A DNA stretch of 64,000 bases, taken from contig JAIYDW010000010.1 in the NCBI GenBank assembly GCA_027487315.1, positions 19,933-83,932 of the forward strand. Reading direction: 5' to 3'. Every line of letters starts with the position of its first letter. Positions within the stretch are counted from its first letter, which is position 1. Of the stretch, positions 19,816 through 24,306 are shown piece by piece. The stretch comes from Verrucomicrobiaceae bacterium (lineage in GTDB: Bacteria; Verrucomicrobiota; Verrucomicrobiia; Verrucomicrobiales; Verrucomicrobiaceae). The notes under the pieces were generated by a model. The model did not search any database, was not told the origin of the DNA, and saw only the letters and a list, made by a program, of their open reading frames with translations. The translations under genes were made by a program, and so were the position numbers.

Positions 19816-21351
19816 ATGGTCGCTCGCACTTACTCCGCCACCCTAGTCGGCGTCAACGCCGTCGAAATCGAAATCGAATCCCACGACGGCGGCGGCACCC
19901 CTCGCATGATCATTGTCGGACTCCCCGACACCTCCGTCAAAGAAAGCCGCGAACGCGTCTCCGCCGCCATCGCCAGTTGCGGCTTCATGATGAACGACGG
20001 CGTCACCACCGTCAATCTCGCCCCCGCCGACCTCAAAAAAGAAGGCCCCGGCTTCGACCTCCCCATCGCCATCTCCCTCATCGCCCACCGCTCCCGCCTC
20101 CCCATCGACGCCCTCGCCTCCTCCGCCATGATCGGCGAACTCGCCCTCAATGGCGAACTCCGCCCCGTCCGTGGCATCCTCGCCATCGCCCTCGAAGCCC
20201 GCGCCCGGGGCCGCGCCCGCCTCATCGTCCCCAAACGCAGCGCCGCCGAAGCCAGCGTCGTCAGCGGCATCGACATCATCGGCGCCGCCAACCTCCAGGA
20301 AGCCGTCCTCTTCCTCAAAGGCGAGCTCGACATCCCACCCGAACCCTGCCGCGCCACCGAGTTCTTCGCCGCCTCCAGCCACTACGACTTCGACTTCGCC
20401 GATGTCAAAGGCCAGCACAACGCCAAGCGCGCCATGGAAGTCGCCGTTGCCGGCGGCCACAACCTCCTCATGGTCGGTCCCCCCGGCACCGGCAAATCCA
20501 TGATCGCCAAACGCATCGTCACCCTCATGCCCCGCATGAGCGAAGAGGAAGCCATCGAAACCACCAAAATCCACAGCGCAGCCGGCCTCCTCAGCGAAGC
20601 CACCGCCTTCATCGCCACCCGCCCCTTCCGCTCCCCCCACCACACCATCAGCGACGCCGGACTCCTCGGCGGCGGCTCCAATCCCGGCCCCGGCGAAGTC
20701 AGCATGGCCCACAACGGCGTCCTCTTCCTCGACGAACTCCCCGAGTTCCGCCGCAGCACCCTCGAAGTCATGCGCCAACCCCTCGAAGACAGCAAAGTCA
20801 CCATCTCCCGCGCCGTCGGCAGCATGACCTTCCCCGCCCGCTTCATGCTCGTCGCGGCAATGAACCCCTGCCCCTGCGGTTACTATGGCGATACCAAACG
20901 CGAATGTCGCTGCGGCCCGCCCCTCATCCAAAAATACCGCCAACGCATCAGCGGCCCCCTCCTCGACCGCATCGACCTCCATGTCGAAGTCCCCCTCGTC
21001 GACTACAAAGCCCTCACCTCCACCGAACAGGGCGAAACCTCCGCCACCGTCCGCACCCGCGTCGAGCAGGCCCGCGCCATCCAAACCGAGCGCTTCGCCA
21101 AAAGCCCCGGCACCCACATCAACAGCGCCATGACCCCGCGACAAATGAAAACCCACTGTCAGCTCGACGCCGAAGGCAGCGCCTACCTCGAGCACGCCAT
21201 GAACGACATGAACTTTTCCGCCCGCGCCCACGACCGCATCCTCAAAGTCGCCCGCACCCTCGCCGACCTCGCCCAAAGCCCCACCATCCGCCCCAACGAC
21301 ATCCTCGAAGCCATCGGCTACCGCGCCCTCGACCGCAACCTCTGGACCTGA
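19816..21351 (+). CDS. YifB/ComM-family Mg-chelatase-like AAA+ ATPase
   Basis: A 511-residue protein of the YifB/ComM family. The N-terminal Lon-like S5 domain ([22 protein letters not shown]) is followed by an AAA+ module with Walker [15 protein letters not shown], Walker [12 protein letters not shown], and the Mg-chelatase-type insert [15 protein letters not shown]. The C-terminal segment includes [11 protein letters not shown] and [12 protein letters not shown]. ComM promotes branch migration during natural transformation in Proteobacteria; in other phyla the role is inferred. The gene starts 54 bp after the SH3 gene on the same strand. Its antisense frames give a 736-residue shadow ORF. 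Confidence 0.93.
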
Positions 21352-21361
21352 TCGCCTCCGC

Positions 21362-21934
21362 TCAGTCGCACCTCAAATCCTCGCGCCGCAATCCCGCCTC
21401 CAATCCGCCAACCGCCGCGGCAATCACCTTTGGTGAGTATCCCTCCCCGGCCAGTCGCTCCCGAGCAGCCTCAACGAGGCAACAGGCGTTCCCGCCACTG
21501 CGCGCCTGCCGCAGCGCCCCGATCATCCGCTTCCCAATCGCATCCAAAGCCGGCCTAACCTTCCCCGCCAAATCCGGCAAAGCCTCCCCCTTAACCTCGC
21601 GCCCCGCGTTCCTCGCCAACCACTCCTCCTGGCACACCTTCGCCGCCCGAATCTGCCCCGCAAAAAAGCCCCGCACCGCCGCGCCCGGCAGCCCCATCTC
21701 CGCACCCAAACCCGCCATCGCGTCCAGCAACGCCGCCTCCCGCACCGCATCTTCCACCGGCAACCCCTTCGCCTGCTTCACCCTCGCCACCTCATCCATC
21801 CACCCCAACCGCTCCACCATCAAACCCGGCAAATCCCCACCCTCCCGCCCAGGCCCAGCACACCCCACCAACACCAGCACCAAAACCAAACACCCGCGTA
21901 TCGCAAACATCTGCTTCATCATCCTCTTCATCAT
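21362..21934 (-). CDS. Lipoprotein with AroQ-gamma (periplasmic) chorismate-mutase-like domain
   Basis: A 190-residue protein with a lipobox (LVLVGC, Cys 25), so exported and probably lipid-anchored. The mature domain follows the exported AroQ-gamma chorismate mutase pattern: ERLGWMDEVARVKQAKGLPV, EDAVREAALLDAMA and FFAGQIRAAKVCQEEW. From memory of the M. tuberculosis enzyme, its Arg49, Lys60, Asp69, Arg72 and Arg134 align with Arg 42, Lys 53, Asp 62, Arg 65 and Arg 136 here, and Glu109 with Gln 102. The reaction would be chorismate to prephenate in the periplasm. The ATG overlaps the stop of the sugar permease by 4 bp, which is an unusual neighbour. A non-catalytic helical lipoprotein remains possible. 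Confidence 0.65.
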   Translation of the reverse strand: MMKRMMKQMFAIRGCLVLVLVLVGCAGPGREGGDLPGLMVERLGWMDEVARVKQAKGLPVEDAVREAALLDAMAGLGAEMGLPGAAVRGFFAGQIRAAKVCQEEWLARNAGREVKGEALPDLAGKVRPALDAIGKRMIGALRQARSGGNACCLVEAARERLAGEGYSPKVIAAAVGGLEAGLRREDLRCD

Positions 21935-23235
21935 TTCCTCACCTTATCCAACAGCACCGCCCCCAGAATCACCAACCCCAGCACCACCTTCTGCGTGTAG
22001 CTCTCCACATTCGTCAAATTCATCCCATTCTGAATCACCGCGATCGTCAACGCCCCAATCAACGTCCCAAACATCCGCCCCTTCCCCCCACTCAAACTCG
22101 ACCCGCCCACCACCACCGCCGCGATCACATACAACTCATACATCGTCCCATAAGTCGGTGACCCGCTCTTCAACTGCGACGCCATAATCACCCCGCCCAA
22201 CCCAGCCAGCAACGCACTCGCCAGATACGTCACCAACACCACCCGCTTCAGTGGAATCCCCGACAAGATCGCCGCCTCCCTATTCCCCCCCACCGCATAC
22301 AAATACCGCCCCAACTGGGTGTGATTCATCACCACATGCGCCACGCCATAGAGCCCAAACATCAGCACCACCGCATTCGGCAATCCAACCAAATCCGCCC
22401 CGCGCCCCAACCACACAAACGCATCCGGCATTGCTGAAATCGACTGCCCATCGGCCAGCAAATACGCCAACCCGCTGCCCACCAGCATCATCCCCAGCGT
22501 CACAATGAAAGGCGGGATATCGAATCGCGTCACCATCAACCCGGAGAAGCCCCCAAAGCATCCGCAAAGAAGCACCGCCACCAAACTGCACCCCACCAGT
22601 TGCCACGTCCCCGCCTCAGCCCCACCTCCATAGTCCCGAATCAAAACGCTCACCAACACCGCCGACAGCGCAATCAAACTCCCCACCGACAAATCAATCC
22701 CCCCCGCCACAATCACCATCGTCATCCCGATCGCCACGATCGCGATCACCGCAATCTGATTGGCAATGTTCAGCAAATTATCCGCCTTCAAAAAACTCGG
22801 AAACCGCGACCGCTGAGGCTTCACCACCCGCACCCCACTCAGCCCTGGAAATGCTTGCCCCACATTTTCAAAAATCAACCACCGCCCTGCCAACTCACTG
22901 CAAGCCACCCCATCCAACTCCTTCCCCTCACTCATCGCCCTCTCTAGCGTCTTACGCGCCTCCCTCGGTCCACCCGAAACAACCTCCATCACCTCCACCC
23001 CACCCGCCCGCAATTGCCGCTCCAACTCCGCCAAAAAAGCCACATCTCCCGTCGTCTGACCACCCACCACCAGCACCCGCTCCCCCGCCCGAATCGCCCC
23101 CGCCACCTGTCCCACCGCAGCCACTCCAGTCGCCGACTGCTCCGTATAGGTCACCACACTGAAAAACACACACAGCAGCAGCAACACCACCACCATGCCG
23201 TAGTCCGTCAAAAACCGGGATCGCTGAGTCTTCAT
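21931..23235 (-). CDS. Ribose-type ABC transporter permease with a large periplasmic insertion
   Basis: A 434-residue RbsC/BPD_transp_2-family permease. TM1 is near residues 13-30 (MVVVLLLLCVFFSVVTY). The conserved core starts near residue 146 with SFLKADNLLNIANQIAVIAI, then GMTMVIVAGGIDLSVGSLIAL and near the end GGSSLSGGKGRMFGTLIGAL. Between them about 108 residues are inserted where usual RbsC proteins have a short loop. The insertion (ERVLVVGGQTTGDVAFLAEL) looks alpha/beta and resembles one lobe of a periplasmic sugar-binding protein. It lies 7 bp after the binding-protein gene and overlaps the lipoprotein gene by 4 bp. No ATPase gene is adjacent. Confidence 0.88.
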   Translation of the reverse strand: MKTQRSRFLTDYGMVVVLLLLCVFFSVVTYTEQSATGVAAVGQVAGAIRAGERVLVVGGQTTGDVAFLAELERQLRAGGVEVMEVVSGGPREARKTLERAMSEGKELDGVACSELAGRWLIFENVGQAFPGLSGVRVVKPQRSRFPSFLKADNLLNIANQIAVIAIVAIGMTMVIVAGGIDLSVGSLIALSAVLVSVLIRDYGGGAEAGTWQLVGCSLVAVLLCGCFGGFSGLMVTRFDIPPFIVTLGMMLVGSGLAYLLADGQSISAMPDAFVWLGRGADLVGLPNAVVLMFGLYGVAHVVMNHTQLGRYLYAVGGNREAAILSGIPLKRVVLVTYLASALLAGLGGVIMASQLKSGSPTYGTMYELYVIAAVVVGGSSLSGGKGRMFGTLIGALTIAVIQNGMNLTNVESYTQKVVLGLVILGAVLLDKVRK

Positions 23236-23242
23236 GCTCGAT

Positions 23243-24202
23243 TCATTTCAAATCCGGGTCCTTCTCCCCGTCCGCCTTCCGATACAACTGCGTCGGAATC
23301 AATATCTCCGGCGCCACCTCTTCCCCTAGTGACCACTTCACAAACGCCTTCACAATCTCCACGCCCATCCGGTCTGGAAACTGAATCGGGTCCGCATACA
23401 TCTTGCCCTCCTTGATCGCCACCTTCCCCTCCTTCATCCCATCGAAGCCAATGATCGCAATCTGATCCGCCTTATTCGCCTTCTCCAAAGCCGCCCGCGC
23501 CCCCAGCGCCGACGGATCATTGATCGCAAAAATCCCCCGCAAATCCGGATGCGCCTGCAAAGCATCTTCCGCTGCCCGATACCCAATATCTCTCGCCCCA
23601 CCCCCATCAATCTCCATCACCAACTCAATCTTCGGCCCTCCCTTCACATTGAACGCATCGATCACCTCCCGAAACCCCTTCACCCGCAGAATGCACGACT
23701 GCGCCTGCTTCAAATGCAAAATCGCCACCTTCCCACCCGACTTGCCCAGCACCTCGATCATCGCCATCCCCGCTTCCCGTCCTCCGCCATAATTGTCAGT
23801 CGCAATCTGAGTCACAATCTTCGCCTCAGGATCAGGACAAGGAATGTCCACAGTGAACACCGGAATGCCCGCCGCATTCGCCTCCTGAATCACCGGCACC
23901 ACCGACTTCGGATCACACGGACTCAACACAATCGCATCCACCCCTTTGACAATAAAATCCTTCACCTGGTTCCCCTGCTTCGCCATGTCCTTGTCCGCGC
24001 TCACAATCAGCGCCTCAAATCCCTGCGCCTTTGCCTCCGCCGCCAAGTGATCCCCGATGATCTTGAAAAACGGATTCTCCAAAGTCAAAAGCGACACCGC
24101 AATCGTCCCTCGCGCGCCCCCCTCGCTCCCGCCCTTCTCGCCGCAGGACACCAAAGTCACCGCAGCCAGAACACCCAGTGTCCATCCGAAAAATCCTTTC
24201 AT
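23243..24202 (-). CDS. Sugar ABC transporter substrate-binding lipoprotein (RbsB type)
   Basis: A type I periplasmic binding protein with two Rossmann lobes. After a lipoprotein signal (LAAVTLVSC), the mature protein begins IAVSLLTLENPFFKIIGDHL, the typical opening of ribose/galactose-type proteins. GVDAIVLSPCDPKSVVPVI, GIPVFTVDI and IAIIGFDGM are the expected sugar-cleft segments. The ligand cannot be deduced. The ORF track starts at 24253; ATG 24202 (MKGFFGWTLG) directly before the signal peptide, with a GGCGGG just upstream, is preferred. It is the first gene of a three-gene operon. Confidence 0.9.
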   Translation of the reverse strand: MKGFFGWTLGVLAAVTLVSCGEKGGSEGGARGTIAVSLLTLENPFFKIIGDHLAAEAKAQGFEALIVSADKDMAKQGNQVKDFIVKGVDAIVLSPCDPKSVVPVIQEANAAGIPVFTVDIPCPDPEAKIVTQIATDNYGGGREAGMAMIEVLGKSGGKVAILHLKQAQSCILRVKGFREVIDAFNVKGGPKIELVMEIDGGGARDIGYRAAEDALQAHPDLRGIFAINDPSALGARAALEKANKADQIAIIGFDGMKEGKVAIKEGKMYADPIQFPDRMGVEIVKAFVKWSLGEEVAPEILIPTQLYRKADGEKDPDLK

Positions 24203-24306
24203 CCCGCCGTTGTAAGACAAACCCCTCCCCTTGTCCATCTCCATCCCAATCACAAACCCACACCCGGGTTTGCGTGCACCTCAATCGTGCCCCAGACTCC
24301 CCCTTC

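Follow-up and report, generated by a model that had tools for sequence, protein, structure and literature searches.

Organization of the locus

The window, a 64,000-nucleotide stretch of a Verrucomicrobiaceae draft genome, carries on its minus strand an RbsB-type binding-protein gene, a co-directional RbsC-type permease gene and, directly behind the latter, the gene of an exported AroQ-gamma chorismate mutase (CM). The features at the locus are as follows.

23243..24253, minus strand: RbsB-type sugar-binding lipoprotein (Peripla_BP_4, 181 bits)
21931..23235, minus strand: RbsC-type permease, 434 aa, with an extracytoplasmic insert at about aa 30-145 (BPD_transp_2)
21931..21934, minus strand: ATGA, permease stop TGA and CM start ATG, 4-bp overlap
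21362..21934, minus strand: aroQ-gamma lipoprotein gene, exported chorismate mutase, 190 aa (CM_2, TIGR01806, AF2 model)
21860..21934, minus strand: signal peptide with lipobox LVG-C25 (read from the sequence by eye)
21740..21811, minus strand: catalytic residues R42 (21809-21811), K53 (21776-21778), D62 (21749-21751) and R65 (21740-21742)
21629..21643, minus strand: A98, K99 and Q102 at MtCM positions T105, E106 and E109 (AfCMCDT substitutions)
21554..21556, minus strand: R127, equivalent of MtCM Arg134, invariant
21349..21937, no strand: synteny break; blastn homology to congener G001 ends at 21349 (comM 3' end/stop) and at 21937 (permease 3' end)

The first-pass annotation had described a 190-residue lipoprotein and a 4-bp overlap of its start with the permease stop, and both points were confirmed: the open reading frame is as given, its N-terminal hydrophobic segment leads into the lipobox LVGC with Cys25, which by eye constitutes an export signal, and the shared ATGA is present. 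A second ATG lies directly behind the first and would reduce the overlap to 1 bp with better spacing to an upstream GGTGAGG; the CM and permease genes abut whichever ATG starts the CM. On the 3' side comM is convergent, with 11 bp between its end and the mutase stop. Scans for promoters and terminators returned scores at the level of shuffled sequence, and the CM gene may be co-transcribed with the RbsB-RbsC pair that it follows.

The assignment of the upstream protein as a sugar ABC permease of the RbsC type also held, with the BPD_transp_2 model matching the 434-residue protein at 138 bits over aa 153-426. The RbsB-type gene lies upstream of it; its listed GTG start (23243-24253) is probably too early, given that an ATG at 24202 yields a normal lipoprotein signal peptide. 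The RbsB-RbsC operon (window 21931-24253) contains no ATPase gene and is not a complete RbsABC set, the only full-length RbsA-like ATPase of the genome being a lone gene on another contig (G000:C242:13063-14580). Some other families within the order have rbsA next to the permease gene.

The permease insert of ~115 aa (window 22800-23150) lies between the first and second helices and is conserved in 28 sequences. It had no match in Pfam, and was modelled by AlphaFold2 (AF2) as an alpha/beta domain, for which Foldseek returned partial matches to single lobes of type I binding proteins (TorT, AmiC, ribose-binding protein) at a weak E of 0.1-0.5, a probability of 0.98-1.0 and an rmsd of mostly 3-4 Å. 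A resemblance of the predicted domain to one lobe of a sugar-binding protein can be taken as a lead only.

Family and fold of the mutase

The window protein matched the chorismate mutase type II domain CM_2 (PF01817) of Pfam, scoring 39.2 bits where 27 is the cut-off (E 8e-10). In the comparison with the AroQ-gamma family, which had been proposed as a check of the assignment, AroQ-gamma models were the top scorers for the protein, and the score for the NCBIfam model TIGR01806 (65.8 bits, E 4e-18) fell just short of the curated equivalog cut-off of 74.15. Fifteen relatives, 41-52% identical to the window protein, were aligned for analysis of conservation, and all of them match TIGR01806 at E<=1e-5 (best 5.5e-25). 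A profile of these relatives searched against the PDB recovered exported chorismate mutases, including AfCMCDT (E 4e-22) and the Burkholderia protein 6cnz (E 6e-22). The chorismate mutase match of the window protein is far beyond chance.

The AF2 model of the mutase is all-helical (pLDDT 87, pTM 0.79), and each of the 29 Foldseek hits that it gave at E<=0.001 is an exported chorismate mutase, among them 6cnz (E 4.5e-6) and MtCM 2f6l (TM 0.77, target). The predicted structure is thus that of the single-chain, all-helical MtCM type. Taken by profile, fold and kept catalytic residues, the identification of the window protein as an exported AroQ-gamma chorismate mutase is supported.

Active site

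Ten active-site residues are listed for MtCM (PMC10520331); their counterparts in the aligned window protein are R42, K53, V60, D62, R65, L69, A98, K99, Q102 and R127. MtCM R49, K60, D69, R72 and R134 correspond to R42, K53, D62, R65 and R127, so that the catalytic Arg, Lys, Asp and Arg noticed at first pass are indeed retained, together with a C-terminal arginine. Across the 15 relatives R42, K53, R65, Q102 and R127 are invariant, as is A98, while D62 is kept in 14 and is Asn in the G019 protein; a loss of the catalytic Arg/Lys residues in close homologues, named beforehand as a refutation, is not seen among these relatives. The catalytic residues are under strong constraint irrespective of the neighbouring genes, and it is therefore probably the enzyme activity itself that is selected.

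Some MtCM active-site positions are substituted in the window protein (T105A/E106K/E109Q), which is exactly the pattern of AfCMCDT, an enzyme found experimentally to be active with a Km below 7 uM (PMC10520331). Because A98, K99 and Q102 are the residues of this active enzyme, the window mutase is likely to be active as well. These substitutions, along with the score below the TIGR01806 cut-off, could be expected of a non-catalytic accessory protein of AroQ fold with the permease or its ligand as binding partner, a role that had been suggested for it as a structural relative of the mutases. Such a role is disfavoured, and we regard it as very unlikely, because relatives whose gene has no transporter gene nearby retain the core catalytic residues, and identical substitutions occur in AfCMCDT.

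Export and cellular context

A signal peptide or lipobox was identified by eye in all aligned relatives. Twelve of the 15 have a lipobox-like Cys, and the remaining three (G017, G023 and G033), with a plain signal peptide lacking the Cys, fall into a single clade, all three in a PQQ/DUF1015 neighbourhood. Besides the exported protein, the genome has an ordinary cytoplasmic chorismate mutase-prephenate dehydratase (P-protein), and the exported mutase is therefore not needed for phenylalanine. A search across the genome for a periplasmic cyclohexadienyl dehydratase (CDT) partner gave no convincing candidate; the solute-binding protein closest to a CDT domain has just 27% identity, was recognised in a scan as a common SBP_bac_3 protein and was rejected. 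A literature search for chorismate mutase in Verrucomicrobia retrieved nothing relevant.

Gene neighbourhood and distribution

Of 68 genomes in the family, 20 have the mutase gene, and in only one of the 20, the window genome, does it stand beside an RbsC-type permease gene. Its neighbours are a divergent mnmA in nine genomes, PQQ propeller and DUF1015 genes in three, recA in one, rlmI and a polysaccharide-export gene in one, thioredoxin and L,D-transpeptidase genes in one, and other genes in four, and these contexts follow the clades of the gene tree. The insert-bearing permease was found in 28 other relatives from the family and order, with a CM gene behind it in none of the 28; where such relatives have the single mutase gene it is located away from the permease. 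Linkage of the CM to RbsB-RbsC is consequently not conserved (1/20 CM carriers; 0/28 other permease carriers). A search of contigs with one sequence, the part of the linkage survey that reached beyond the phylum, produced one further locus, probably the G458:C202 contig again, as the match coordinates agree. Two candidates were set aside: a permease match near the mutase of G436 (L128), which is a fragment 5.7 kb off with several genes between, and an apparent 4-bp overlap of the mutase and PQQ genes of G023, where the DNA has the ATG 2 bp behind the stop, close but without overlap.

The link to an RbsC-type transporter raised by the first-pass annotation therefore proved unique to the window genome among the genomes searched, an outcome that had been named beforehand as its refutation. 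A functional coupling, in which the mutase would serve the transporter by acting on a chorismate-derived ligand sensed or imported by RbsB-RbsC, would fit the same-strand 4-bp overlap of the two genes and the transporter or solute-binding neighbours reported for exported CM-CDT fusion genes in Proteobacteria (PMC10520331). In view of those fusions, a weak general tendency of exported CMs toward transporter genes may exist. Set against the coupling are the counts above, the sugar (RbsB) type of the binding protein and an intact transporter in congener G001, which has no mutase gene; it is considered highly unlikely. A narrower version, confined to one species, would have the anchored mutase recruited into the RbsBC-type operon, with the insert-bearing permease handling or sensing a chorismate-derived compound, and we give this hardly any credence.

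Of 388 genomes drawn across the phylum, 11 have a mutase match, in 7 of 199 genera, and the family is accordingly patchy. The mutase gene tree has too little resolution to decide between transfer and loss. In the same class, one genome of 384 encodes a CM-CDT fusion (L099:658-1956, G210:C38), an exported protein of 433 aa with Pfam CM_2 and SBP_bac_3 domains whose alignment with AfCMCDT spans the full length (E 7e-82); fusions of this kind had been described in nine beta- and gamma-Proteobacteria only (PMC10520331).

Synteny break behind the permease

Comparison within the genus covered three genus mates that are 85-90% complete. The closest, G001, has a binding protein 92% and a permease 85% identical to those of the window and the same rlmI-ParA-Amt flank. 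No match to the mutase gene was found in its genome; its permease gene is followed by non-coding repeats, the contig ending 250 bp past the permease. On one G001 contig the alignment runs out at the permease 3' end, and on another at the comM stop, after which G001 has different sequence. The mutase gene thus fills the rearrangement break. The sequence at the G001 contig end behind the permease (L072:1-250) consists of short tandem repeats, CTCTCCACT-like, which may mark the site of rearrangement.

That the junction is an assembly chimera absent from the organism, as the draft state of the assembly (256 contigs) and a loss of synteny exactly at both gene ends might suggest, is extremely unlikely, since the junctions leave the CM and both flanking genes intact, with the overlap at 4 bp, and a chimeric join would seldom keep both frames.

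Proposed origin and role

The reading that we consider likely is that of a lipid-anchored exported AroQ-gamma mutase whose gene was put behind RbsB-RbsC by a rearrangement and which has no part in transporter function. A recent, genome-specific rearrangement would have set a patchily distributed gene behind the pair and created the 4-bp overlap; being recent and singular, the junction is poor evidence of function. The gene probably came to lie behind a sugar-transporter gene by chance. The CM-permease operon is incidental and genome-specific, and the protein belongs to an already known family. Of the original proposal, the identity of the exported mutase is upheld and the functional link with the sugar transporter is not.

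The mutase, predicted to be membrane-anchored and to face the periplasm, would turn chorismate into prephenate outside the cytoplasm, using chorismate presumably leaked from its own cell or from lysed neighbours. Since the genome has the cytoplasmic mutase-dehydratase and no periplasmic cyclohexadienyl dehydratase could be recognised in it, the exported enzyme is an accessory one, and its prephenate would be lost, taken up or converted non-enzymatically to phenylpyruvate.

Exported AroQ-gamma mutases, mostly lipoproteins, are thereby extended to a family of the phylum where their occurrence is patchy and their neighbours vary by clade. Mutase function is poorly predicted by gene neighbourhood here, which argues against inferring a role from one operon.

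Comparison with known systems

The window protein shares with the AroQ-gamma exported chorismate mutases (MtCM; Yersinia pestis 2gbb; Burkholderia 6cnz and 5ts9) an export signal, a one-chain all-helical fold, the conserved Arg, Lys, Asp and Arg plus the C-terminal Arg, and coexistence with a cytoplasmic AroQ. It differs from them in its predicted lipid anchor and in an identity of only about 20-28%, and from MtCM in the replacement of Thr105, Glu106 and Glu109 by A98, K99 and Q102. The CM domain of the CM-CDT fusions (AfCMCDT 8cq3, JbCDTCM 8cq4, DsCDTCM 8cq6) provides the best PDB profile match, with active-site substitutions identical to those of AfCMCDT; unlike the fusions, the window protein has no CDT domain, and none was found elsewhere in the genome. 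The adjoining transporter genes resemble the RbsABC ribose-type ABC importers in the tandem of RbsB-type and RbsC-type genes and depart from them in an operon without an ATPase gene and a permease with a ~115-aa insert after its first helix.
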